A DNA stretch of 22,364 bases from a virus, in the IMG/VR virus record IMGVR_UViG_3300023313_000203, positions 1 to 22,364 of that record; one strand, 5' to 3'. Every line of letters begins with the position of its first letter. Position 1 is the first letter of the stretch. Positions 404 through 22,364 of this stretch are shown here, one piece after another. The position numbers were made by a program, and so were the translations under genes. The notes under the pieces are model-generated. The model ran no database searches, was not told the DNA's origin, and saw nothing but the letters and a program-made list of their open reading frames with translations.

Positions 404-3079
404 TTATTCAATAAAATACTTTGCTTCGCCTTTTATAAAACCCATTTTTTGAATAAATTTTAAAAACTTTTTTGAATTCATTTTTTTATTTATTTCTCTT
501 ATTTCTTTATTTGAATATCTATCTTTAAGAGATTTTATTTTTAATTTAAACTCAATTCCAAATCTTAAAAAATCAATAAAACTTTTATTTTGAAGTGAAC
601 TTATATCACTTGAAATAACTTTAGAAAGTAAATAATCTCCATAAAAACTATTTTTAATTATTTTATTCATTATATTATATCTATTTAATTTATTTATATA
701 TTGTTTATCAATAATTTGTTTTTTTGCTATTTTAATATATTCATCTTCTGTTTTATTTAAAAACTTATTTTTAATTTCATTAACTATTAATTTAACTTTT
801 TCATTATCTGTTAAATTAATTGTTTTATTTTTTATTTCATCTATATTAATATTTATATCTTTATAATCATTTAAAATTTCTAATAATTCTTTATTTTCAC
901 TTTCTTTTATTTCTTTTTGAATTTCTTTAATATTTATTTTATAATTTAATTCTTTAAAACTTTCTGTAACTATTTTAGTTTTAAACTGAAAAGGAAGTAA
1001 AACAGTAAAAGCATTTGTATGATTATTTTTTATTAAATTATAAAATGCTTCAATCTGATTAATATATTTAGCTAATCTTGTTAAATTTAATTTTCCAGTT
1101 TCATAATTTACTTCTACTAAAAGTGTTGAATCCTTTTTATTATAAAAAGAATTTATATTTTTTTCTGCTGTTGAATTAATACTTCTTACATCAATATCAT
1201 TATAAAATTGTCTTTCTTCGAGATAAATATGTATATTTTTTGTATTTCTACTTCTTTTTATCATTTGTAAACTTGAAATAACATCAGTACTCATTCCCGT
1301 ATCATAATGAAAGTGATTATCTATATTATTTAAATTACTAACTCCAACAGTTAGAGTAGGTGAATATAAAATAACATCAAAAGCATTATGTTCAAAACTT
1401 TTAAATTTTTTATAAATTATTTCTCTTGTATATTCAGAAGTTTCTGAATTTAGAATAATTACTTTTATATTATTTTCTTTTAATAAATTATATGTTACTT
1501 TTAAAATATTATTACTTGTAAATGAGCAAGAAATAACTTTATTTTTTTCTTTAGTTTTTGAATATTTAATTATATTGGATATAAATTTTTCTTTACTTTT
1601 ATATTCAAATAAATTTATATTATCTCTATAATTATTCTCAATATTAAATATTTCTCTATTTTTAAAAAATATATCTTCATATCCAGTTAAAAAAGCATCA
1701 GCAACAACTATTTTTTTTGTTTCCATAAATATTTTAAATTTAATAACATTAATATTATGATTATTAGTTAAATTACTTCTGTGATGAAATAAAAGTGAAA
1801 TAAATTCGTCAAGAATAACAATATCAAAATTTTCAATATCAAATTTATGTAAAGAGTCAAATTGAACAACAACCGATTGATTTTGCTTCCAAGCATTTCT
1901 ATCTTTATATAATAAAATATTATATTTTTCAGCAAAATCAATAGCAACAGAAACTCTATTTGAAATTAAAATAACTTTTAAGTTTTTTTTATGTGCTTCA
2001 TCAATAATTAATTTTATTCCATTTGACTTTGCTGTTCCCATAGCAGATTTAATTTTTAAAACATCATTTTTAGTTTTAATCCATTTATTAATTAATTCTT
2101 TTTTATTTTCCTTTTTAAAATCTAAATATCTTTCATTTATTATTAATTGATTTTTATAATTTTTATTTATTATTAATTTATTTTCTTGTTCTTTTTTTGT
2201 TTTTTCTTTTAACCATTTTTTTCCTATTTCTGTTTCTTTTAATAAATTAAAAATACTAATAGTTCTTGATTTATTATGGTGATTCATAATTAAAGGAGAT
2301 GAAGAAAACCAAAAAAATCCACCTTTTGTTTTTCTTTCGCTTAAATGATAAAAGTTAATTGCTTTATCACTTCTTTTATCTCCTTTTATAGGAGAATAAC
2401 CAAGACTTTTAAATATACTTAAACATTCAATTATTATTTTATTTTCAAAATCAAAATCAATATTATAATTATTATTTATTATTGTTTTTATATTTTCAAT
2501 TTGAGTTTCTGAATCAGTTAATATTTTACCATTTTCTTTATGATAAATAATCTGATTTGAATTTGTTGGTGCTTGATAAGAAATAAAATTTCCAACTGTT
2601 AAATCAACCTTACAATTTAATAAAAGTTCAGTTTGTAATTTTAAAAGAATTGACTTTATAATTTCTTCTTTATTTTCTATTGAACATCTAATAATTCCTT
2701 TTATATTAAAATTATCTTTTCCATCCCAACTTCTTGACTTTCCTAATATACAACTATATTTTTTATTTTCAAAATATTTAATAATAAATAAATAATTTTC
2801 TTTTGTTTTAATTTTATCAAGATCAATTATTATATTTGTTATTTTTTTATATTTAAACTTATTTAAATTTTCTTTATCTCTTTTTAAAAAAGTTGGTTCT
2901 TTAATATTTAAAGGTTGAGATAAAGTAAAATTTGTTGACATTATTTTAAATGCTTCTAATAATGTTGATTTATTAATATTGATAAAAATATGATTTTTAT
3001 CAAAAGTTTTTGAAAAAGCAACTTTTGGCTCTTTATTTATTTCAATAGCATTAAAAATTGTTAATTGAATATCAGACAT
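404..3079 (-). CDS. primase/helicase of the origin-binding-protein (Herpes_ori_bp-like) type
   Basis: An 891-residue replication protein. The C-terminal two thirds is a superfamily 2 helicase. It has Walker A at residues 345-353 (SAMGTAKSN), a following strand with SNR, a DE box at 424-425 (VILDEF), a motif III-like VVADAFLT, motif V at 573-581 (SPTLTVGVS) and motif VI near 605-611 (QMIKRSR). This pattern fits viral origin-binding-protein helicases. The N-terminus looks like an archaeo-eukaryotic primase core: D-x-D at 86-88 (IIIDLDKI), a GKSRSWDG segment at 113-120 and a later D159 in KVDLTV. The primase assignment is inference from motif order; the helicase call is firmer. It is the last gene of the operon and its ATG overlaps the previous stop (TAATG). 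It probably unwinds and/or primes phage DNA. The central palindrome at 8326-8802 would be a natural candidate target. Confidence 0.75.
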   Translation of the reverse strand: MSDIQLTIFNAIEINKEPKVAFSKTFDKNHIFININKSTLLEAFKIMSTNFTLSQPLNIKEPTFLKRDKENLNKFKYKKITNIIIDLDKIKTKENYLFIIKYFENKKYSCILGKSRSWDGKDNFNIKGIIRCSIENKEEIIKSILLKLQTELLLNCKVDLTVGNFISYQAPTNSNQIIYHKENGKILTDSETQIENIKTIINNNYNIDFDFENKIIIECLSIFKSLGYSPIKGDKRSDKAINFYHLSERKTKGGFFWFSSSPLIMNHHNKSRTISIFNLLKETEIGKKWLKEKTKKEQENKLIINKNYKNQLIINERYLDFKKENKKELINKWIKTKNDVLKIKSAMGTAKSNGIKLIIDEAHKKNLKVILISNRVSVAIDFAEKYNILLYKDRNAWKQNQSVVVQFDSLHKFDIENFDIVILDEFISLLFHHRSNLTNNHNINVIKFKIFMETKKIVVADAFLTGYEDIFFKNREIFNIENNYRDNINLFEYKSKEKFISNIIKYSKTKEKNKVISCSFTSNNILKVTYNLLKENNIKVIILNSETSEYTREIIYKKFKSFEHNAFDVILYSPTLTVGVSNLNNIDNHFHYDTGMSTDVISSLQMIKRSRNTKNIHIYLEERQFYNDIDVRSINSTAEKNINSFYNKKDSTLLVEVNYETGKLNLTRLAKYINQIEAFYNLIKNNHTNAFTVLLPFQFKTKIVTESFKELNYKINIKEIQKEIKESENKELLEILNDYKDININIDEIKNKTINLTDNEKVKLIVNEIKNKFLNKTEDEYIKIAKKQIIDKQYINKLNRYNIMNKIIKNSFYGDYLLSKVISSDISSLQNKSFIDFLRFGIEFKLKIKSLKDRYSNKEIREINKKMNSKKFLKFIQKMGFIKGEAKYFIE

Positions 3080-3429
3080 TATTCAATCCAATTATCTATA
3101 AGATTTATTTTTGATAAATCTATATTTTTAGTTTTAAAATAAGTATATACATTTTTAAAACCTTTTATTTTTATTTTTTCCCTTTTATATAAAAAAGGAA
3201 CTCCTTCAAATTCATCAAGATTTAAAATTTCTGATTTTTCTATTTTCCAAATTTCTCCTTTTATAAAATAACCTTTATTTTTTATATTTTCAAGATAAGG
3301 AAAATCATCTCCATTTTCATACATAGGAAATTTATAAAAAGTTTTTGCTTCGGAAATAAATATTCCTTTTAATCTTGAATTATTTCTATAATTTCTTTTT
3401 AAGGTTCCATAAATAAATATATATTCCAT
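3079..3429 (-). CDS. gamma-glutamylcyclotransferase-like (AIG2/GGCT fold) protein
   Basis: A 116-residue protein starting MEYIFIYGTLKR. The YGTL motif at residues 7-10 is the substrate-binding loop of the GGCT/AIG2-like family. The LDEFEG segment at 71-76 carries the Glu expected to be catalytic, and it is followed by the usual hydrophobic Y-x-R-E strand. Length and motif spacing fit single-domain GGCT-like proteins, which release 5-oxoproline from gamma-glutamyl amines or peptides. The substrate here is unknown. It is tightly coupled between the Dda-like helicase (1-nt gap) and the primase-helicase (1-nt overlap), so it is translated from the same mRNA. A role in phage takeover, or in modifying gamma-glutamyl conjugates, is only a guess. 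Confidence 0.8.
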   Translation of the reverse strand: MEYIFIYGTLKRNYRNNSRLKGIFISEAKTFYKFPMYENGDDFPYLENIKNKGYFIKGEIWKIEKSEILNLDEFEGVPFLYKREKIKIKGFKNVYTYFKTKNIDLSKINLIDNWIE

Positions 3430-5776: not shown

Positions 5777-5792
5777 ATTTTTCTCCTTTTTT

Positions 5793-5824
5793 AATAAATA
5801 CATATATTAAAATATGTATTTATT
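5793..5824. other. 13-bp intergenic hairpin between sheath gene and next gene
   Basis: AATAAATACATAT (5793-5805) pairs perfectly with ATATGTATTTATT (5812-5824) around a 6-nt loop. Read along the minus strand, the hairpin is followed by an A-rich stretch and the ribosome-binding site of the next gene, not by U residues. An RNA-processing, stability or attenuation role is therefore likelier than simple termination for the operon. Read along the plus strand, it is followed by a T-rich run and could stop antisense transcripts. Confidence 0.5.
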
Positions 5825-5831
5825 TTTTATT

Positions 5832-8141
5832 TTAAGCAAAAACTTCAGAAAAGTCAACGCCAGTTCCAACAGCAATAAAATTTAAAGTAATAAATTCACT
5901 TACTCTTGTTGGTTTAATAGCAATATCAGCTATAAATTGATTTGAGTCAATAACAGCTGAATTATTATTACTTTCATCACATCTAACATAAAAGTCATAA
6001 ACTCCTCTTCCTGCTTTTACACTTTCAAGAAAGGGTTTGATAGTTCCAATAAATCTATTTCTTGTAATTTCATCATTCATTTCAAATAAATAATATCTTG
6101 CCATTCTCGAAATAGCTCTTTCAAGAGTATTAAATAAACCTCTAACATTTATTCTTGAAAATGAACTTGGTTTACTTTCGAGTGTTTTTTGACCCCAGAC
6201 TAAAGCATTTCCTTGACCCGGAAAAGAAACAATTGGATTTACTTTATTTTTATATAATAAATCAAGTTGACCTCTATTTGGATTAAATGCTATTTTTAAG
6301 GCATTTTTAATTTTTCCTCTTTCAAGTCCAGCACTTGCAAACCAAGTATCTCTTTTTGTATTTGTATCAGCTCTTAGTCCAGATACATCTCCTGCTATTG
6401 AAACCCATCTAATTTTATCATTATATTTATCATATTGCTGTTTATAATTACCAAAATAAGCATTATAAGAATTTGCAATATCAGATGAATTTAATTCTCC
6501 TGAATTTACATCCATTATTAAATTTTCAACTATTTGTGTTGATGAAATTCCAACAATATCTTCAAATCTTGAACCGTGAAAAGCAATACAATCACCTCTT
6601 TCATTTGCTAATCTTGCACCTGAAATTCTTGATCTTTCGTTTGAAATAACAATATCAATATCAATTTCCTCTTTATTTCCGAAAATTGAGTTATTTGCTA
6701 CATTTCCATAAGCATTATCAATATCAGCACTATTAATAAAACCATCTTCTCCATTTGAAAGATAAAGAATTTTATTTGAAATTTCTGAAATAGTTGTTCC
6801 TGTAACTTGATCAATAATTTCAGGAGTATAAAGTCTACTATCTGGCATTTCAGAAAATCTTGTATTATTTTTTAAATAAATAATTTTACTATATTTATTT
6901 ATAATATCTTCAATATAATTTGATTTATTTTTATAATCTTTTGAATCGGGAATTAATGAACCAATATAAACTTCACTTACCTTATTATCCTTTTTAATAA
7001 GAATTGCTATTTCTTTTTTTGCTTCACTTGGTGTTACTTCAAAAAAGTCATTTAATAAAAGTCCTTTAAAAGCTGTTTGAGTTCCAGTAATAAAGTCTGA
7101 CTCTCTTGCTATTGTAATTTCAATTCCATTTTGTAAAGAACCCGAATCCCTTGCTATAAATTTAAGTTTTGTATCTCCAAATAATGGAATACTTTCTTTA
7201 CTTATATCAAAATCAAGTTGATTTGTTAAAAATATTGTTTCAAGTTTTAATTCAGAAGCAGTTTTTGCTGTTTTTCCTTCAATTGGTGCTGTAACAATTG
7301 AATTTAATGCTGAATTTTTTGAATAAATACTTTCATCAATAATAGCACCACTTATAACATTTCCAGACTCATTAATAGCTGAAAAATCAACTGTCTGTCC
7401 AGCAACCTTATCAAAAACAAGTTGATATGATTTACCAGCAACTGATGCAGTTTTAGTTGATACTCTCATTATTCCTACAACTGGATTGTTTGACATCGGC
7501 ACTCCTGCTGTTGTTGCTGTTACAGTTATAATATTACCTGTTACCGAAATATTTGTTGCTGATGTATCAAGATTTTCAAGTGCAGCACCAAGATTATTTG
7601 CTATAATACTAGTTGTATCACCGAGAATAGATGAATAAACAGCAACAGAAGTTTCTGTTTGAATTACATAATCTCCGACTTGAGCACTATCAATTGTAAT
7701 TATATCAACTTGCTTAACTGCTTCTTTTGGATATTCAATATCAATAACTTTATATTCATTTGCATTATTATATCCAAATTTAACAATTGAACCAGCTTGA
7801 ATAAATGTTGGAACTGTTTCAATTTCAACTTTTCCGAGTTCTTTTGTAGAAAGAACAACATTATTTGTATCTTTAAAAGTTCCACTTGAATCAACTGCAC
7901 GACTAATAAGTAATTTATTTGAATATTGTAAAAAATTATAACATTGATACCAATCATTATAATTTAAATCTGTCGGTTTACCAAAAACCGAAATCAACTC
8001 ATCTACATTTGTAATATTAACATATTTATCACTTGGACCTTTTGTAAATTCTCCAGCAAAACAAGCAATTGAATTTCCTAAATTTGGAACCACTATACTA
8101 AGATCAATTTCATTAACCTGTACTCCAGGACTTAACATCAT
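5832..8141 (-). CDS. contractile tail sheath protein (gp18-like)
   Basis: A 769-residue sheath subunit that polymerises around the tail tube and contracts during DNA injection. The N-terminus is diagnostic: LSPGVQVNEIDLSIVVPN, then IACFAGEFTKGP, VDELISVFGKPT, NFLQYSNKLLISRAVD. The C-terminus also fits: YDFYVRCDESNNN, then an ADIAIKPTRVSEFITLNFIA stretch and a final V-x-F-S-E. T4 gp18 has 659 residues; the extra length probably lies in a Thr/Ser/Val-rich beta segment around residues 110-300, an outer-surface insertion. The first of two adjacent ATGs is used, with AAGGAG six bases upstream. It is the first gene of the minus-strand operon, preceded by a 759-bp divergent regulatory region. Its codons are less extremely AT-rich than the repeat genes, as expected for an abundant structural protein. 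Confidence 0.93.
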   Translation of the reverse strand: MMLSPGVQVNEIDLSIVVPNLGNSIACFAGEFTKGPSDKYVNITNVDELISVFGKPTDLNYNDWYQCYNFLQYSNKLLISRAVDSSGTFKDTNNVVLSTKELGKVEIETVPTFIQAGSIVKFGYNNANEYKVIDIEYPKEAVKQVDIITIDSAQVGDYVIQTETSVAVYSSILGDTTSIIANNLGAALENLDTSATNISVTGNIITVTATTAGVPMSNNPVVGIMRVSTKTASVAGKSYQLVFDKVAGQTVDFSAINESGNVISGAIIDESIYSKNSALNSIVTAPIEGKTAKTASELKLETIFLTNQLDFDISKESIPLFGDTKLKFIARDSGSLQNGIEITIARESDFITGTQTAFKGLLLNDFFEVTPSEAKKEIAILIKKDNKVSEVYIGSLIPDSKDYKNKSNYIEDIINKYSKIIYLKNNTRFSEMPDSRLYTPEIIDQVTGTTISEISNKILYLSNGEDGFINSADIDNAYGNVANNSIFGNKEEIDIDIVISNERSRISGARLANERGDCIAFHGSRFEDIVGISSTQIVENLIMDVNSGELNSSDIANSYNAYFGNYKQQYDKYNDKIRWVSIAGDVSGLRADTNTKRDTWFASAGLERGKIKNALKIAFNPNRGQLDLLYKNKVNPIVSFPGQGNALVWGQKTLESKPSSFSRINVRGLFNTLERAISRMARYYLFEMNDEITRNRFIGTIKPFLESVKAGRGVYDFYVRCDESNNNSAVIDSNQFIADIAIKPTRVSEFITLNFIAVGTGVDFSEVFA

Positions 8142-8256
8142 ATTTTTCTCCTTATATCTTATTTTTAAAGTATGAGCATAGAGTTTTTAAGTTTAAAATA
8201 AGTAAAAAACCTTGAATTTAATAAGTCAAGTTACTCTATGTTTCCTCACCTAAATA

Positions 8257-8264
8257 TATTTATA
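8257..8264 (-). promoter_or_regulatory. TATAAATA, candidate T4-type late promoter for the sheath operon
   Basis: The minus strand carries an exact TATAAATA, the T4 late-promoter consensus, 116 bp upstream of the sheath ATG and in a non-coding stretch. Such an 8-mer also occurs by chance in DNA this AT-rich (for example inside the gene at 17654-20386). The call rests on position and on the better-placed example before the capsid gene. Confidence 0.35.
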
Positions 8265-8284
8265 AAACTTAGTAATAAGAATAA

Positions 8285-8328
8285 AAAAAGATTTATTAAA
8301 TATAGTAAAAAGATTTATTAAATATAGT
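8285..8328. repeat. 22-bp tandem repeat, two copies
   Basis: Two perfect copies of a unit beginning AAAAAGATTTATTAAATA lie at 8285-8306 and 8307-8328, abutting the outer end of the large inverted repeat. The core AAAAAGATTTAT is shared with the central hairpins of that repeat. Confidence 0.8.
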
Positions 8329-8346
8329 AAAAATAAAACCTTATAT

Positions 8347-8375
8347 AGAATACTGATTCAAATATATATGTACAA
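8347..8375 (-). promoter_or_regulatory. candidate promoter toward the sheath operon (mirror copy)
   Basis: On the minus strand TTGTAC (8370-8375) is followed after exactly 17 bases by TATTCT (8347-8352). This spacing suits a housekeeping-sigma promoter, though both boxes are imperfect (three and four matches to consensus). The same arrangement occurs twice on the plus strand at 8754-8833. It would start about 200 bp upstream of the sheath gene. Confidence 0.3.
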
Positions 8376-8525
8376 TAAGAATAATATAATCAAATACAAG
8401 GATACATCTGTAATCTAGGTTGGATAAAAAGATTTATCTTTTTATACTACCTATAATAGATTACAGATAACTAAAGATTCATCTTTAGTTCATATTATTA
8501 TTTTTCTTTATTATTCATTAAACTT

Positions 8526-8608
8526 AGTAAATATAATAATAAAGAATAATAGTAAATATAATAATAAAGAAAAATAGTAAATATAATAATAAAGAATAAT
8601 AGTAAATA
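8526..8608. repeat. 25-bp tandem repeat array at the centre of the inverted repeat
   Basis: Three intact units of 25 bp (8526-8550, 8551-8575, 8576-8600), each AGTAAATATAATAATAAAGA plus five bases, and a fourth that runs into the right arm. There are no unique spacers, so this is not a CRISPR array. The array forms the spacer between the two arms and contains no G/C pairs beyond the repeated G, so it should melt easily. Confidence 0.9.
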
Positions 8609-8753
8609 TAATGAATAATAAAGAAAAATAATAATATGAACTAAAGATGAATCTTTAGTTATCTGTAATCTATTATAGGTAGTATAAAAAGATTTATCTT
8701 TTTATACTACCTAGATTACAGATGTATCCTTGTATTTGATTATATTATTCTTA

Positions 8754-8853
8754 TTGTACATATATATTTGAATCAGTATTCTATATAAGGTTTTATTTTA
8801 CTATTTGTACATATATATTTGAATCAGTATTCTATATAAGGTTTTATTTTACT
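8754..8853 (+). promoter_or_regulatory. duplicated 48-bp element with candidate promoters toward the plus operon
   Basis: The 48-bp sequence at 8755-8802 is repeated exactly at 8806-8853. Each copy holds TTGTAC, a 17-base gap and TATTCT (boxes at 8754-8759/8777-8782 and 8805-8810/8828-8833), followed by TATATAAGG. The downstream copy would start transcription near 8840, about 60 bp before the ATG at 8901. The upstream copy belongs to the right arm of the inverted repeat and is mirrored on the left. The duplication is directly seen; promoter activity is inferred. Confidence 0.35.
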
Positions 8854-8900
8854 AAGTTTAATGAATAATATAATATAAATATAATAAAAGGATATAATAA

Positions 8901-9278
8901 ATGAAACTAAGAACAAAACTAATAAACCTATATAATAAAGAACTTTTAAATTCTGCTAATAAAACAGCTATGAATAACTTTATTGAATTTCTTGAAACTG
9001 CTTCAGATAAAGAAATATTAAAATTTCCAGTTGTTTTAGTAGAATTTCTAAGAAAACAATATATTTCTCATCATCAATTAAAATTTATACAAACTAAATA
9101 TTATTCTCTTATTAAATATAATTCACTTAAAGATAGAAAAGATAAAAATAATATTTCGCTTTTATTTGGTTTTATTAAAGAAGAAAGTAAAGGTTATTGT
9201 TTTCCTGTTTCACTTAATAGTAAATATTCTATTAATAAGCAAAATAGTAAATATACTGTTTCGGCAAAAAATAAATGA
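8901..9278 (+). CDS. hypothetical protein, probable N-terminal part of a frame-split gene
   Basis: A 125-residue lysine-rich protein beginning MKLRTKLINLYNKELLNS, with AAAAGGA upstream of the ATG. It is mainly helical in appearance (FIEFLETASDKEILKF, then VVLVEFLRKQYISHHQLKF) and ends with a degenerate NSKY repeat. Its stop (TGA 9276-9278) follows a run of six A residues (9266-9271), and the next frame (+1) is open immediately after. No ribosome-binding site serves the downstream frame. The two frames may therefore form one protein of about 440 residues joined by programmed +1 shifting, or separated by a one-base insertion or sequencing error. No domain is recognised in this part. It is the first gene after the central palindrome. 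Confidence 0.65.
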   Translation: MKLRTKLINLYNKELLNSANKTAMNNFIEFLETASDKEILKFPVVLVEFLRKQYISHHQLKFIQTKYYSLIKYNSLKDRKDKNNISLLFGFIKEESKGYCFPVSLNSKYSINKQNSKYTVSAKNK

Positions 9279-9291
9279 TTTTCTTGCTAAA

Positions 9292-10221
9292 ATGTTAAAT
9301 ATTTTTAAAGAAGAAGATAATAAAAAATTTAAAGAAAATAAAGAAAAACTTCGCGAAAGAAGTTTAAAAAAGTTTAATAATTGCGAAGTTCAGAAAATTC
9401 AATCAAAAATTGAAATTATGGATAGGTTTCATTTTCCATTTAATAAGTGGAAAAGTTTAAAGTTTTTAAGTAAAAGTGAATTTTTATTACAATTTCCTTC
9501 AAAAAATCCGAATGGAAGAGTATATAATAAATATTGGAACTCATTAAATAAAATAGAAAAAATAACTTTATGTCCTGAGTATAATTCTTATGATATTAAA
9601 GCATCAATTTATCAATTTTTAAAAGAAACAGCAATAAAATATAATTTAGATTATACATATATTAATTATTATATAGAAAATAAAGTAAAAGTAAGAAACA
9701 TATATGGAAAGAAATTTTTAAATAGTCTTCCCTATTTAGTAGAGAAAAAATCAACTATTTATGATGAATCAGATTTTATTTCTTTTTTAATTCTCGAACT
9801 TAAATTAGTAATATCAAAAATAAAAGAAAAATTATTTACTGGTTATGAAAATTGGGAAAGAAATAAAATTACTGACTTTATTAAATTAAATAATCTTACT
9901 AATTTTATTACAAATCACGATGAAATTCTTGTATATAAAACTGAAATAAATAAAGTTAAATATATTCCTGATATTTTTTCAATTCAGACAATAAGTCAAA
10001 GAGAAAGTATTATACTAAAAAATAGAAGAAATTCATATGAAATGATGAAAAGGGAAACAAAAAAACTGGAAGAAAATGAAAGATTAATATTTTTATATTC
10101 AGTTAGAAAGAGATGTAAAAAACAAAAAATGATTAATAAATATAATTTAAAGATTTTATCACTTAAGTGTTCGGGAGATGAAGACTTCCTAAAAAGAATT
10201 GGAAGTCTTGAAAATATGTGA
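9292..10221 (+). CDS. hypothetical protein with weak polymerase-palm-like motifs; probable C-terminal part of the split gene
   Basis: From the ATG at 9292 this frame gives 309 residues. The frame is open further upstream, but there it only shadows the preceding gene, and no ribosome-binding site precedes 9292. Three segments in order recall family A polymerase motifs. Residues 100-108 read YDIKASIYQ (motif A-like, D101). Residues 135-139 read RNIYG, with lysines before it (motif B-like). Residues 208-214 read NHDEILV (motif C-like; family A enzymes have HDE). The spacings are shorter than in Pol I, no exonuclease domain is seen, and the protein is small. This is thus a hint of a divergent or degenerate polymerase-like fold, not an identification. 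The C-terminus is strongly basic (KRCKKQKMINKYNLK). It converges with the small minus-strand gene, 11 bp away. Confidence 0.6.
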   Translation: MLNIFKEEDNKKFKENKEKLRERSLKKFNNCEVQKIQSKIEIMDRFHFPFNKWKSLKFLSKSEFLLQFPSKNPNGRVYNKYWNSLNKIEKITLCPEYNSYDIKASIYQFLKETAIKYNLDYTYINYYIENKVKVRNIYGKKFLNSLPYLVEKKSTIYDESDFISFLILELKLVISKIKEKLFTGYENWERNKITDFIKLNNLTNFITNHDEILVYKTEINKVKYIPDIFSIQTISQRESIILKNRRNSYEMMKRETKKLEENERLIFLYSVRKRCKKQKMINKYNLKILSLKCSGDEDFLKRIGSLENM

Positions 10222-15239: not shown

Positions 15240-16844
15240 ATGATAAGAGTAAAAAGTAAAAAAGAGTTAAAAGAAATAATTAAAAAAGCGGATAAATATG
15301 CCGATTTAAATCATCTTGATGTTACGGGAATTACTAATTTTCAAGAATTATTTTATTATTCAGATTTTAATGGAGATATAAGTAAATGGGATGTAAGTAA
15401 TGTTACAACTATGCACTTTATGTTTGTTGGAAGTGAATTTGAGGGAGATATTAGTAATTGGGATACGGGAAATGTTAGAGATATGGGTAATATGTTTAAT
15501 GAAAATCTTGTTTTTAAATCTGATATTAGTAAATGGGATGTTTCGAAAGTTGAAAATATGGAAGCAACCTTTGGAGGAAAATTACCTTTTAAACCAAATA
15601 TTTCAAAATGGAATGTTAGAAGTCTAAAACACGCAAATGGAATGTTTTCTGATTCAAATTTTAATGGTGATATTTCAAAATGGAATACTAGATCACTTAT
15701 AGGTATGAAACATATGTTTGAACAAGCTGATTTTAATGGAGATATTAGTAAATGGGATGTTAGTAATGTAACTGATATGGAATATACTTTTTATGCTTCT
15801 AAATTTAATAAAGATGTTAGTAAATGGGATGTTAGTAAATGTAAAGATTTTGGACTTATGTTTTCTTATTCTAAATTTAGAGGAGATATTAGTAAATGGG
15901 ATATTGATTCAAAAGCAAATATATATAAGATTTATGAAAAAGCAGGTGTTGTAAATCAAGAAACATTTAAGGCATATAAAAATAAAAATATAAACGAAAG
16001 TAATTCAGGAGAAGAAATAAAAAATTATTATGGTAGAAAAAGAAGATTAAATGAAAGTAATTATAGAGGACCAAAAAAAGAAGTTGTAAAAACAAGATCA
16101 GATCTTGAAAAAATTATTAAACATGCTGATAAAAATGAAGATTTAAATCATCTTGATGTTTCGAGAATTAAAGATATGTCTGGTTTATTTCAATATTCTA
16201 AATTTAATGGTGATATTTCAGACTGGGATGTTAGTAATGTAACTGATATGAGAGTAATGTTTGAAGAAGCAAGTTTTAATGGTGATATTAGTAAATGGGA
16301 TACTGGAAGTGTTAAACTATTTGATGGAATGTTTGAAGAAGCAAAATTTAATGGTGATATTTCAAAATGGGATGTTTCAAGTGCCGAAAAAATGGATGGA
16401 ATGTTTGCTAAAAGTGTATTTAATGGTGATATTAGTAAATGGGATGTTTCAAGAGTTGAAACAATGAATGGAATGTTTGCTTATTCAAGATTTAATAAAG
16501 ATATAGGAAGATGGGATGTTTCAAGTGTAACAAATTTTTGGCATATGTTTGTTGGTTCAAAATTTAATAAAGATATTTCAAGATGGGATGTAAGTAACGC
16601 AGAAGCAATGGATGAAATGTTTAAAGAATCAGATTTTAATAAAGATATTTCAAGATGGGATGTTAGTAAAGTTGTAAAATTTAGTGAAATGTTTCTTGAT
16701 TCAAGATTTAAAGGAGATGTTTCTGATTGGGAAATAAATCCAAATCCAAAATCATTTTTTGTTTTTTCAATGGAAGATTTTTATCCTTATGAAGATATTA
16801 ATTCATATGAAGACTTTGAAGATTATGTTGATAGAATGAGATAA
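15240..16844 (+). CDS. double DUF285/PARCEL-type repeat protein
   Basis: A 534-residue protein made of two homologous halves. Each half starts with a helical cap ([20 protein letters not shown], and [20 protein letters not shown]) and continues with eight 24-residue repeats. The repeat consensus is [16 protein letters not shown] followed by x-x-M-F-x-x-S-x. The halves are joined by a charged linker at about residues 240-285. This is the DUF285 (PF03382) repeat, also described as PARCEL repeats, seen in surface proteins of mycoplasmas and many other microbes; it forms a leucine-rich-like solenoid. No signal peptide or membrane segment is present, so it is more likely a virion or cytoplasmic protein than a secreted one. 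AAAGGAG ribosome-binding site seven bases before ATG. Position after the capsid gene suggests a head or fibre adhesin, by inference. Confidence 0.88.
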
Positions 16845-17653: not shown

Positions 17654-20386
17654 ATGGCACTTAATTATTCAATAAAACTAAAAGTAATAGATGAAAATAA
17701 TAATATAATTGAAAATGCTAAAGTTCATTTATATTTTAAAAAAAATAATATAAATTCAGTAGATTCAAAATGGGATTCAATAAAATATACAGGAAAAACA
17801 GGAAAAGTTGATTTAAATTTAGGAAATAATGATTTTCTTGGTTCGGAGTCAGATATTTATAATAATGATGAAGTATTAATTTGTGTTTGGTATTCAAATA
17901 ATAAAATTGGCGATGATAAACAATCAAAAACAGAAAATACAATATTAAGATGTGTTAATTTTATTCATAAAATAGATTTATCAAGTAAATCTTGGACTTA
18001 TAATGTTGTTTTATTAAAAGTAAAAAGTCCAATATTAGATATAAATATTAGTAATCAAACAAAAACAAATCAAGATATTAATATAATTAATAATTCTTAT
18101 TTATTAAATTATAAAATAAATTTAAATAATATTGATTTATATCAAAGTATTAACTTTTTTAATCAAGATTTATTTATAGGACTAAATATAAAAAACTCAA
18201 TATATGATTTTAAATCTATAATTATAAAAACAAATCAAGAAAATTATAATTATAAATTTAAAAAGTCTGGAGTTTATAATAGTGAATTTAAAGTAATTAA
18301 TTATCTTGGTTTTTCTTCTGAAACTTTTAGTAAACAATTTATTATAACTTATAATAAACCAATTATAAATTTTAATTATAATAAAACAAATATTAATAAA
18401 ATAATAATTAAAAATTTATCAGAAACAAGATTTAATGATAATTGGATTGATTTAGATGTTAGTTTTAAATTTGAGATTTCTGATAAAAATCAAGATAATT
18501 CAAATAATAATAAAGAAATTATAACAAAAGATATTAATTATATAATTGAAAATTATTTTAAAAGTTCTGGAAATAAAAAAATAAAATTAATTTTAGTTTG
18601 GAATGATGGATTTAATATAAAATCTGAAATATTAGAAAAGAATATTATTATAGATTCTTATAAAATAATTCAAAAAATGGATTTAATAACACAAAAAGGT
18701 TATAAAGAAAATAATATTTTTATTCCAGTTGGAGATAATGATAATATAATAATAAATAATAATATTATTACAAGTATTCCATATAAAATAAAATGGGAAG
18801 TTTCAAATTTAAAAAATAATAATATTGAAACATTTTATAATAAAGATAAAATAAGTTTTTATATAAAATATAATCATAAAACAGTTGAAATAAAACAAAT
18901 AATTGACTTTTGGAATGGTTTTAAAAATATTACTCAAATAAAAATATTAAATACAATAACAAAAAAATATATATTAAATCAAGATTTTTATTGGAAAACA
19001 AAATTTAATGGTTTAAATAAAATTGTTATTAGTAATGATGATAATATAACATTATTTAATAATTCAGATATTAAACCTTTTAATAATATTAATAATTCGG
19101 TTATAGAATATAAATTAAATAATAAAAAAATAAATAATATATTTAATATATATTCAGTTGAAGATAATATTATTGAACAAAAAATAACTTATTATAATGG
19201 ATATGAATTTATAACAGAAAGTCAAAAAAGAAATATTTATTCAAGAGAAAATAAAATATTTCCTGATTTTAATTGGAGTTCAAGAAATGGAGAAAATAAA
19301 AATATAGTCGGAAGAGATGATATTGTTAGTTTTTCTGATTTAAGTTATTATAAGGACTTTTATAATAAAATAAAATATGATAGAAAAATAAGTATTGATT
19401 GGAAAATAGATAATAAAATCTTGAAAGGAAATTTTAATAATAATAATGAAATTTCAGATAAAGACGAAAATAATATTATTACTATTTTAAATAAAGATAT
19501 TACTTTTAAACCAAAAATAAATTTTTATTCTGAAGGAAAACAAGAAATATATTTTAGAATAAAATATAATAACGGTTTTATAATAAAATATAGTAATTGG
19601 ATAAAAAAGGAAATAAATATAATTTCATATAATAAACCGATTTTAGATGCTATTTATAATAATAATATAAATGATAGAAATATAGATTTAATAATAAAAG
19701 ATAATTCAGTATTAAATAATAGAATTATTTATATAGATTGGAATTTAGAAAATCAAAATAAATATAAAATATCAAATAATAATGAAATAAGATTCAAATT
19801 AAATAAATATAAAGATTATATTTTAAAACAAAAAGTATATTGGGATAATGGATTTAAAGAAGTTATTTTAAATAAAGAATATATAATAAATACAAAAACA
19901 AAAGATATATTTCCTGATTTTAAATATAAACAAATTTTTAATACTGGACCAGAAATTAGATTTACAAATATAACAGATAAATCTTTATATTTTGATTTAT
20001 TTATTTTTGATAAAGATAATTTTGAAAATAATAAAGATATTTCTTTTAAAAATCAAACTAAATCAATTGATTATAAATATAAAAGTTGTTCAAATTCGCC
20101 TTTTGAAAATAATAAATTTAATAAAAAAGTAGAATTAAAAGTTTATTATGATAATGGTTGGGAAATTTTAAGTAAAAGTATTATAAAATATATTTGTGTT
20201 AAACCAAATAGAATAAATCAAGATTTTATTATTAATCCAATTAGAGATATAAATGATAAAGAAATTAAAACAAATATAATAACTGGAAATAATCCTTTTG
20301 AATTTTCTGATAATTCAAAATCAGAAAGATTAAATGATATTAGTTTTATTAAAAAAGTTAAATATATTATTAAGGATATTATATAA
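17654..20386 (+). CDS. large Ig-like repeat protein, putative virion fibre or decoration protein
   Basis: A 910-residue, Asn/Lys/Ile-rich protein, the most AT-rich gene of the window. The first ~110 residues (SIKLKVIDENNNIIENAKVH, then TGKTGKVDLNLG) look like a carboxypeptidase-regulatory/Ig-like domain. Then follow several units of roughly 80-120 residues, each with a strand ending in an aromatic-Asn-Gly-aromatic turn (VWNDGF, TYYNGYEF, IKYNNGFI, VYWDNGFKE, VYYDNGWEI). This suggests tandem Ig/PKD-like domains. There is no signal peptide and no transmembrane segment. The last unit stops early (ISFIKKVKYIIKDII), so the gene may have been shortened at its 3' end by recombination with the next repeat gene, whose ATG overlaps the stop by one base. 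No catalytic motif. A surface or fibre role is inferred. Confidence 0.75.
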   Translation: MALNYSIKLKVIDENNNIIENAKVHLYFKKNNINSVDSKWDSIKYTGKTGKVDLNLGNNDFLGSESDIYNNDEVLICVWYSNNKIGDDKQSKTENTILRCVNFIHKIDLSSKSWTYNVVLLKVKSPILDINISNQTKTNQDINIINNSYLLNYKINLNNIDLYQSINFFNQDLFIGLNIKNSIYDFKSIIIKTNQENYNYKFKKSGVYNSEFKVINYLGFSSETFSKQFIITYNKPIINFNYNKTNINKIIIKNLSETRFNDNWIDLDVSFKFEISDKNQDNSNNNKEIITKDINYIIENYFKSSGNKKIKLILVWNDGFNIKSEILEKNIIIDSYKIIQKMDLITQKGYKENNIFIPVGDNDNIIINNNIITSIPYKIKWEVSNLKNNNIETFYNKDKISFYIKYNHKTVEIKQIIDFWNGFKNITQIKILNTITKKYILNQDFYWKTKFNGLNKIVISNDDNITLFNNSDIKPFNNINNSVIEYKLNNKKINNIFNIYSVEDNIIEQKITYYNGYEFITESQKRNIYSRENKIFPDFNWSSRNGENKNIVGRDDIVSFSDLSYYKDFYNKIKYDRKISIDWKIDNKILKGNFNNNNEISDKDENNIITILNKDITFKPKINFYSEGKQEIYFRIKYNNGFIIKYSNWIKKEINIISYNKPILDAIYNNNINDRNIDLIIKDNSVLNNRIIYIDWNLENQNKYKISNNNEIRFKLNKYKDYILKQKVYWDNGFKEVILNKEYIINTKTKDIFPDFKYKQIFNTGPEIRFTNITDKSLYFDLFIFDKDNFENNKDISFKNQTKSIDYKYKSCSNSPFENNKFNKKVELKVYYDNGWEILSKSIIKYICVKPNRINQDFIINPIRDINDKEIKTNIITGNNPFEFSDNSKSERLNDISFIKKVKYIIKDII

Positions 20387-20853
20387 TGATTATTGTAAAA
20401 AATAAAGATGAACTTATTAATATAATAAAAAATTCAAGTGATGATGAAGATTTAAATTATATTGATATATCTAATTTAAAAGATTTATCAAGAGTTTTTA
20501 TAAATTCAAGTTTTAATGGAGATATAAGTAAATGGGATACAAGTAATATTATTAATATGAGTTCTTTATTTAATAATTCTAAATTTAATGGAGATATTAG
20601 TAAATGGGATACTTCATCTGTAACTGATATGAGTTATATGTTTAAAAGTTCTTGGTTTAAAGATAATATATCAAATTGGGATACTTCATCTGTTATTAAT
20701 ATGAGTAATATGTTTTCCTTTAATGGTTTAGAAAAATCAATTGATATTAGAAATTGGAATACTTCTTCTGTAACTAATATGAGTTTTATGTTTTTTAGAT
20801 CAAATATAAATAATATTAATATTTCAAATTGGAATACTTCTTCTGTAACCTAA
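20386..20853 (+). CDS. DUF285 repeat protein, N-terminal half of an interrupted gene
   Basis: 155 residues: the usual cap (ELINIIKNSSDDEDLNYIDI) and four and a half 24-residue repeats ([16 protein letters not shown] and variants). The frame is cut by TAA at 20851-20853 inside repeat 5, where sister repeats read S-V-T-N-M. The downstream frame is the same and continues the repeat without a break. The intact product would have 263 residues and eight repeats, the same number as each half of the protein at 15240-16844. AAGGA lies nine bases upstream of the ATG. Either a true nonsense mutation has truncated the adhesin, or the stop is read through or is a sequence error. Confidence 0.7.
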   Translation: MIIVKNKDELINIIKNSSDDEDLNYIDISNLKDLSRVFINSSFNGDISKWDTSNIINMSSLFNNSKFNGDISKWDTSSVTDMSYMFKSSWFKDNISNWDTSSVINMSNMFSFNGLEKSIDIRNWNTSSVTNMSFMFFRSNINNINISNWNTSSVT

Positions 20854-21177
20854 ATGTGTTTTATGTTTACTTATTCAAGTTTTAACTCATTGGATATTAG
20901 TAATTGGGATACTTCATCTGTTATTAATATGAATTCAATGTTCGAAAAATCAGTTTTTAACTCATCTGATATTAGTAAATGGAATGTTTCTTCTGTAATT
21001 AATATGAGTAATATGTTTAATGGTTTAGAATTAAAACTTAAAAATATAAGTAAATGGAAATTAAATAAAGAAGTATGTCTAGATGGATTTTCAAAAAATA
21101 TTAAAACATATAGAGATTTTTTAATAAAAACAAAAGGAAAAGATAATATATCAGTATTATTTAAATATTTAAAATGA
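20854..21177 (+). pseudogene. DUF285 repeat protein, C-terminal half of the interrupted gene
   Basis: 107 residues in the same frame as the preceding half, directly after its TAA. It begins mid-repeat (MCFMFTYSS) with no ribosome-binding site, then has repeats 6-8 and a C-terminal cap (LDGFSKNIKTYRDFLIKTKG) that matches the cap of the 208-residue neighbour (IDGINCFNEFRKIKGKYLIS). The intact C-terminus with no further damage suggests a recent interruption or read-through. The ATG after the stop arises from the repeat itself and is probably not a natural start. Its TGA stop overlaps the next ATG (ATGA). Confidence 0.6.
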
Positions 21178-21800
21178 AAGTAACAATAAAAGAATTAGAA
21201 GAAATAATAAATAAAGCAAATAATGATGATGATTTAAATCACTTAGATGTTTCCGAAATTACAGATATGAGCAGTTTATTTATTTACTCAGAGTTAATAT
21301 CAATTGAAATAAGTAAATGGGATGTTAGTTCTGTAACAGATATGAATTCAATGTTTTGTAATTCAACTATTACAAATATGGATTTATCAAAATGGGATAC
21401 AAGTTCTGTAACAGATATGAGTTCAATGTTTTATGATTCTTATTTTAATTCTGATATAAGTAAATGGAATGTTAGTAATGTAACAAAAATGACAAGTATG
21501 TTTACAAATTCAAAGTTTAATTCGGATATTTCAAATTGGAATATAAGTTCTGTAAAATATATGAGTTATATGTTTGAAGACTCAATTTTTAATAAGAATA
21601 TTAATAAATGGAATATTGATAATGTAAGAGAAATGGAATATATGTTTAGTGATTCCGAATTAGAATTCAAAAATATAATAAATTGGAAAATAAATAAAAA
21701 TACACATTTGGGTTTTTTTATAGATGGAATTAATTGTTTTAACGAATTTAGAAAAATAAAAGGAAAATATTTAATATCAAATTTAAGTTATTTTCTTTAA
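21174..21800 (+). CDS. DUF285/PARCEL-type repeat protein
   Basis: 208 residues: cap ELEEIINKANNDDDLNHLDV, then about six 24-residue repeats (for example [34 protein letters not shown]) and the same C-terminal cap as its upstream neighbour. It overlaps that gene by four bases. It is a shorter paralogue of the repeat proteins at 15240 and 20386, pointing to local duplication with gain and loss of 72-bp units. No signal peptide or membrane anchor. It is the last gene of the plus-strand operon; a boundary repeat module follows. Probable surface adhesion or decoration protein, by family and context only. Confidence 0.85.
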   Translation: MKVTIKELEEIINKANNDDDLNHLDVSEITDMSSLFIYSELISIEISKWDVSSVTDMNSMFCNSTITNMDLSKWDTSSVTDMSSMFYDSYFNSDISKWNVSNVTKMTSMFTNSKFNSDISNWNISSVKYMSYMFEDSIFNKNINKWNIDNVREMEYMFSDSELEFKNIINWKINKNTHLGFFIDGINCFNEFRKIKGKYLISNLSYFL

Positions 21801-21847
21801 ATTCTTAAGTAATTTTATGTTATAATAACCTAGATTAAAAATAATAT

Positions 21848-22093
21848 GTAAGTAATAACAATTAAATCAAGAATTTAATTAAAATATTAGCAAAGATTAA
21901 TAAGAAAAAATAAATTTATTTTTTTTTTAAAATCCTAGGTTAGTACAAAATCTTTATGTATTTTTAATATATAAATATAAGTAAGTAATAACAATTAAAT
22001 CAAGAATTTAATTAAAATATTAACAAAGATTAATAAGAAAAAATAAATTTATTTTTTTTAAAAAATCCTAGGTTAGTACAAAATCTTTATGTA
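21848..22093 (+). repeat. right copies of the operon-boundary repeat
   Basis: Two direct 113-bp copies, 21848-21960 and 21981-22093, nearly identical, separated by a 20-bp AT spacer. Each runs from GTAAGTAATAACAATTAAAT through a small hairpin (AATTAAAT/ATTTAATT), the A/T palindrome AAAAAATAAATTTATTTTTT with extra T residues, and CCTAGG (21934-21939, 22067-22072) to AAAATCTTTATGTA. The reverse complement occurs twice at 1-240. The T run after the palindrome suggests transcription termination for the operon ending at 21800, though the stem has no G/C pairs. No gene is visible in 21801-22255. Confidence 0.88.
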
Positions 22094-22105
22094 AAAATCC
22101 TCCTT

Positions 22106-22209
22106 TAAATCCTATCTTTAGTAATCTATTATAACTAATCTAACAATCTTAATCAAGTAAATCCTATCTTTAGTAATCTATTATATCTAATCTTACAATC
22201 TTAATCTAA
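22106..22209. repeat. 52-bp tandem repeat, two copies
   Basis: Units 22106-22157 and 22158-22209 both begin TAAATCCTATCTTTAGTAAT and differ at a few bases; a third, partial unit (TAAATCTATATC) follows. No open frame. It lies between the boundary repeat and the window end and may be upstream control sequence for a gene outside the window. Confidence 0.8.
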
Positions 22210-22255
22210 TAAATCTATATCTGATATTCAAACTAAGAAAAAACAAAAACATGGT

Positions 22256-22363
22256 TTAGTTTGTATATAGAAGAAAATTACAAGTTTTTTGAAAATTAGA
22301 TATAAGACTACTTAGATCAGTTTTACTTTTTGACTTCTTGGTCATATTAAGATTAGTCAATCT
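22256..22363 (-). CDS. possible C-terminal end of a minus-strand gene entering from the right
   Basis: A minus-strand frame is open from the window edge to TAA at 22256-22258 and would encode 35 residues ending NFQKTCNFLLYTN. Base composition is slightly less AT-rich than the flanking repeats. An internal ATG (MTKKSKSKTDLSS) has no ribosome-binding site, so if real this is more likely the end of a longer gene. The frame is short and could be chance. Confidence 0.2.
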   Translation of the reverse strand, partial: RLTNLNMTKKSKSKTDLSSLISNFQKTCNFLLYTN

Positions 22364-22364
22364 T

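Follow-up and report, generated by a model that had tools for sequence, protein, structure and literature searches.

The palindrome and its surroundings

The window, by which we mean the whole stretch of DNA analysed in this study, comprises one entire IMG/VR record (22,364 bp) and is a fragment of a T4-like myophage genome. Its sheath, portal, head protease, scaffold and major capsid genes are T4-like, and the best matches among named phages, Va1-like phages of Vibrio and Campylobacter phages, reach no more than about 44-48%. The repeats at both window ends match four places on three contigs among 2.9 million viral contigs, and all of these belong to sample 3300023313. Because these companion contigs (28.3, 42.9 and 13.7 kb) resemble the window in base composition and in repeat-protein genes, and because their translations point to more T4-like replication and structural genes, we infer that they come from the same phage. 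The features discussed below are as follows, with positions counted from the first base of the window.

404-3079, minus strand: superfamily 2 helicase of 891 aa, resembling the herpes UL9 origin-binding protein
5780-5831: left inversion junction, where the sheath 3′ end meets the next gene's 5′ leader
5832-8141, minus strand: T4 gp18-like tail sheath gene, in the opposite orientation to that of every close relative
8142-8251, minus strand: sheath mRNA leader, a diverged copy of a covarying RNA of relatives
8257-8264, minus strand: late promoter TATAAATA serving the sheath gene; transcription is predicted to begin near 8251, beyond the palindrome
8265-8275, minus strand: TTACTAAGTTT adjoining the sheath promoter; it recurs at 8520-8530 (minus) and 8849-8859 (plus)
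8285-8333: left-flank tandem duplication, 27-bp copies (8285-8311 and 8307-8333) with a period of 22 bp
8330-8520: left arm of the large palindrome, 98% complementary to 8609-8799
8406-8468: left compound hairpin around the core AAAGATTTATCTTT; the outer stem has 12 bp, and the 18-bp inner stem contains 2 mismatches
8469-8490: left simple hairpin, AACTAAAGAT-TC-ATCTTTAGTT, 10-bp stem and 2-bp centre
8525-8612: spacer, an A/T-rich tandem array (25-bp unit, about 3.5 copies) without internal structure
8609-8799: right arm of the large palindrome, 98% complementary to 8330-8520
8639-8660: right simple hairpin, AACTAAAGAT-GA-ATCTTTAGTT, 10-bp stem and 2-bp centre
8661-8723: right compound hairpin, 12-bp outer stem and perfect 18-bp inner stem
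8754-8854: right-flank tandem duplication, 50-bp copies (8754-8803 and 8805-8854) with a period of 51
8874-8881, plus strand: late promoter TATAAATA serving the gene at 8901; transcription is predicted to begin near 8887, beyond the palindrome
8901-10221, plus strand: orphan gene of about 439 codons whose reading frame breaks within a run of six A (9266-9271)

A nested mirror-image structure of about 520 bases is present in the window. An earlier sequence-only reading had described nearly perfect reverse-complement arms around a 25-bp A/T tandem spacer, and both elements are confirmed by our measurements. Without gaps, the arms are 191 bp each and match at 187 of 191 positions; with a 1-bp gap they reach about 8324 and 8804, in agreement with the limits given by that reading (8326-8520 and 8609-8802). 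All four mismatches lie in a single hairpin, at 8421 and 8423 in the left stem and at 8434-8435 in the loop, where the two bases are inverted between the arms. The two hairpins per arm of the earlier description are also present, but the inner stem of the compound hairpin measures 18 bp and not 16, with its two mismatches on the left. Fold prediction, which had been proposed as a check, gave strong structure: the palindrome region as single-stranded DNA reaches -186.5 kcal/mol versus -40.9 ± 3.9 in shuffles (z -37), and the single arms folded separately give z values of -8 to -12.

The dyad AAAGATNNATCTTT occurs four times in the palindrome and nowhere else in the window, where 0.04 copies are expected; it is absent from 90 of the 95 loci compared, and the remaining five are slices of the window itself. 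Further local copies accompany the arms. The outer copy of the right-flank duplication forms a perfect 46-bp inverted match (8330-8375 with 8805-8850), a 23-bp inverted copy (8509-8531 with 8848-8870) lies near the right promoter, and the left tandem repeat contains the half-site-like word AAAGATTTAT. No further copy of TTACTAAGTTT was found in the four contigs (107 kb). The palindrome and its accompanying repeats far exceed chance.

The palindrome is a single copy in the approximately 107 kb of what appears to be the same phage. A search by exact patterns returned no match in 2.9 million viral contigs, and the palindrome was not found in close relatives. Alignment scores and block matches between the arms and the end repeats of the phage stay within random expectation, and in an Rfam search of the window the hairpins matched below threshold only. 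The contig was assembled across the palindrome yet broke at the end repeats, which also suggests a single copy.

The late promoter octamer of T4 is TATAAATA, with a spacing of -13 to -6, and transcription from T4-type late promoters depends on gp55 together with the gp45 clamp and gp33 (PMC1524935). The octamer is enriched in the window (26 observed versus 14 expected). As with T4 late promoters, it stands approximately 24-30 nt upstream of many start codons in the four contigs, usually with an AAAGGA-type ribosome-binding site behind it. Two such promoters, 609 bp apart, flank the palindrome and face away from it, so the location between divergent transcription units given by the sequence-only reading is correct. 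Because both predicted start sites are outside the palindrome and outward-facing, the palindrome should not be part of the late transcripts, and the structured bidirectional mRNA leader that the same reading had entertained is not supported. Early promoters may nevertheless lie inside the palindrome. A sigma-70 scan yielded fewer promoter-like sites than shuffles, and a terminator scan yielded none.

The inverted tail sheath gene

The close relatives compared for gene order (L009, L011, L014, L015, L019, L020, L040, L041, L043, L139 and L157, some of them fragmentary) have the order helicase(-), Dda(-), Ad2(-), orf105(-), sheath(+), orf77(-), portal(+) and head genes. The sheath gene is upstream of and co-directional with the portal gene in L009, L011, L014, L015, L019, L020, L040 and L041, and it is divergent from the orf105-Ad2-Dda-helicase group in L139, L157 and L043/L134. 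The window retains this gene order, but among the close relatives it alone has orf105(-) followed by sheath(-), with approximately 50 bp between the sheath stop codon and the probable start of orf105. In a search of relatives for the same arrangement, which had been suggested at the outset, the conserved genes were present, the palindrome was absent, and the sheath gene of close relatives had the opposite orientation.

In L011, L019, L040, L041, L043 and L139, the late promoters of orf105 and sheath are divergent and either overlap or lie 0-18 bp apart. The divergent late pair therefore abuts in relatives, whereas the matching interval in the window measures 609 bp and is occupied by the palindrome. 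The slot downstream of sheath holds other plus-strand genes in L010, L012, L015 and L041. At the left inversion junction (5780-5831) we found no palindrome copy and no repeat. In a distant clade (L054, L056, L058, L063, L065 and L069), the sheath and portal genes are also divergent, with gaps down to approximately 100 bp between matched segments, and no comparable palindrome was present where this clade was scanned (L063, a 154.7-kb contig). Therefore, a divergent layout does not need a palindrome.

A candidate rearrangement scar

We give roughly even chances to the explanation that the palindrome is a recent local foldback duplication between back-to-back late promoters, at the breakpoint of the sheath inversion. 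A single inversion of a block comprising the orf105 promoter, the sheath promoter, the leader and the sheath gene would produce the layout of the window. The diverged copy of the leader accompanies the sheath gene, which indicates that these two were moved together with the promoter as one unit. Transcription of the orphan gene at 8901 would now start from what used to be the orf105 promoter, and the main present role of the palindrome would be that of an untranscribed, hairpin-forming spacer separating two promoters that formerly abutted. Strand switching during recombination-dependent replication of the T4 type could account for both the inversion and the palindrome. Nearly identical arms and at least four extra local duplications, in both orientations, are expected of repeated template switching. 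On the other side, no repeat is present at the left breakpoint, so homologous recombination between palindrome copies did not cause the inversion. Within the close group, no known relative combines an inverted sheath gene with the absence of the palindrome and so shows which of the two came first. Although the four AAAGATNNATCTTT dyads are more orderly than a scar requires, the palindrome is more readily read as a recent scar left by rearrangement than as an origin of replication.

Large inverted repeats have precedent in this phage group. The Firehammervirus genomes of Campylobacter group II phages CP21, CP220 and CPt10 contain repeat regions (RR1-RR4) that are bipartite, often inverted and built around a non-repeated core, and in CP21 and CP220 these regions have been tied to the inversion of genome modules, for which the mechanism is merely conjectured (PMC4546147). 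The inverted arms of CP220 measure 184 bp at 98%. The palindrome is comparable to these regions in several respects: the phages are T4-like, AT-rich relatives, two arms (here 191 bp) enclose a core (here 88 bp, itself a short tandem array), and the structure stands at a rearranged junction, that of the sheath inversion. However, the regions of the CP220 type recur in several places and consist of repeated units, mostly 72-97 bp long, that have a core sequence in common, whereas the palindrome occupies one site in 107 kb, lacks such units, contains nested hairpins and has no significant likeness to the end repeats of its own phage. By analogy with CP21 and CP220, the genome of the phage seems to be modular, with repeat regions between modules.

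A second precedent is the related T4-like phage contig G019 (IMGVR_UViG_3300019742_000002; L104-L108), which contains three palindromic intergenic elements of approximately 420-450 bp near 22.8, 62.7 and 80.2 kb and at least four additional arm-like copies. These elements share with the palindrome an intergenic position, an AT-rich spacer and paired arms (approximately 120 bp). They differ in being multi-copy, genome-wide and away from divergent late promoters, and they have no evident sequence relation to it. If the palindrome is indeed a rearrangement scar, a genome rearrangement has been caught near the act, with the palindrome almost unmutated, and a structural gene has been inverted together with its promoter and leader in the lineage of CP21 and CP220.

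Alternative explanations

The four dyads could instead form an operator array, on which a phage or host regulator coordinates both divergent late promoters. We consider this rather unlikely. Their excess over expectation, their confinement to the region between the divergent late promoters and the half-site-like AAAGATTTAT of the left tandem repeat are what such an array would present. However, two of the four dyads are an automatic result of the inverted duplication, and the dyad was found in no other locus compared, the sample's other contigs among them. To our knowledge, there is no upstream operator at T4-type late promoters.

The sequence-only reading had put forward a phage origin as a candidate function and an origin-binding-protein-type helicase as its possible partner. 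The assignment of the helicase to this type is borne out. A profile built from the 891-aa helicase and five relatives matches the HSV OBP in the PDB (E 2.3e-6, residues 339-429), and the predicted fold has HSV-1 OBP as its best match (E 4.9e-13, TM 0.30), followed by other superfamily 2 helicases. According to the corresponding model, which resembles herpes oriL/oriS, the UL9-type helicase would bind inverted sites in the arms, melt the A/T spacer, extrude the hairpins and start replication in both directions. In HSV OriS, inverted OBP boxes flank an AT-rich spacer and a hairpin forms (PMC12543377), and the palindrome follows this plan with its arms, A/T array and hairpins, in a genome that encodes a UL9-like helicase. 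Its arms are far longer than those of HSV oriS/oriL, however, and contain only candidate binding sites. The UL9 likeness is restricted to the helicase core, and model confidence is low for the C-terminal 190 residues.

Comparison with relatives speaks against the origin. No comparable palindrome (arms of at least 40 bp at 88%) was found in the helicase neighbourhoods of 44 loci covering 686 kb, nor was a similar one found in the complete Vibrio phage Va1, which encodes a helicase homologue, or in contigs G017 and G023. CP220 also encodes a helicase homologue, and its inverted repeat regions are of a different make. The palindrome therefore does not travel with the helicase, and it is linked to a rearranged locus and not to a conserved position. 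That the UL9-like helicase is widespread in these phages, yet unaccompanied by a palindrome of this kind, is useful negative evidence. GC skew does turn at about 8.5 kb, but the turn follows gene direction, as it does in all contigs of the phage; coding-strand skew is positive for genes on either strand in all contigs, with too few fourfold sites for use. The turn is accounted for by the coding strand, and GC skew is rejected as evidence of an origin. On these grounds the proposed origin is not supported, and we regard it as unlikely. The fuller version, a herpes-like origin in a T4-like phage with the dyads bound by the helicase and firing coupled to late transcription, is very unlikely in our judgement, but an origin of this kind would link the replication starts of phages and herpesviruses.

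It is also improbable, in our estimation, that a foldback or palindromic mobile element transposed between the promoters, possibly together with the orphan gene (8901-10221). The dispersed elements and arm-like copies of G019 (L027 contig) would be compatible with such an insertion, as would the variable genes downstream of sheath in relatives and the inverted TTACTAAGTTT words at the bounds of the insert (8265-8275 and 8849-8859). A transposable foldback element should, however, occur in more than one copy or carry a target-site duplication; we found one copy in 107 kb, no convincing target-site duplication and no match of the arms in viral contigs. The orphan gene has no transposase or nuclease match. 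Searches with this gene gave no informative Pfam or PHROGs match and no match in the PDB, phages, plasmids, or viral or genome contigs, and its single-sequence structure model, with a pLDDT of 39, is uninformative. A suspected likeness between two of its short motifs and polymerase palm motifs found no support. Both pieces of the gene share the codon use of the phage, and its frame change could reflect a pseudogene, slippage or a sequence error.

Inverted repeats frequently mislead assemblers, and the window ends in repeats common to three other contigs of one sample, but it is highly improbable that assembly or amplification chimeras made the palindrome or the sheath inversion, because the arms differ at four internal positions and have perfect stretches of at most approximately 91 bp, the flanks are not mutual copies, unlike those of a foldback chimera, and both flanks are consistent with one conserved gene order.

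Other features of the phage and its relatives

The leader RNA lies between the late promoter and the sheath gene in five relatives (L040:9828-9985, L041:1716-1880, L043:9850-9980, L011:2782-2950 and L019:133-270), and L139 appears to carry it too. The diverged copy of the window spans 8142-8264 on the minus strand, with the promoter octamer within this range. In the five relatives the RNA is predicted to adopt a four-helix fold in which 15 of 23 pairs are changed on both sides, versus 8.0 in shuffles; the covariation score is 0.713 versus 0.311, and at most 0.313 when slid. These values come from only five sequences, whose alignment also served to predict the structure. A comparison with Rfam gave no family match at the gathering score. 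Judging from these sequences, the sheath leader is possibly a new cis-regulatory RNA family. Group I introns interrupt the tail sheath genes of relatives (L041:3111-3401; L015:2421-2729 and 2838-3145).

Positions 1-400 and 21800-22364 of the window carry inverted copies of repeat units that are common to L072-L075. Genes for repeat-rich proteins are numerous, in the window (15240-16844 and 20386-21800) and also in G031, G032 and G033. They contain 72-75-bp DNA repeats, resemble BspA-type surface repeats and are often located near module ends, and one of them is interrupted by an in-frame TAA (20851-20853).
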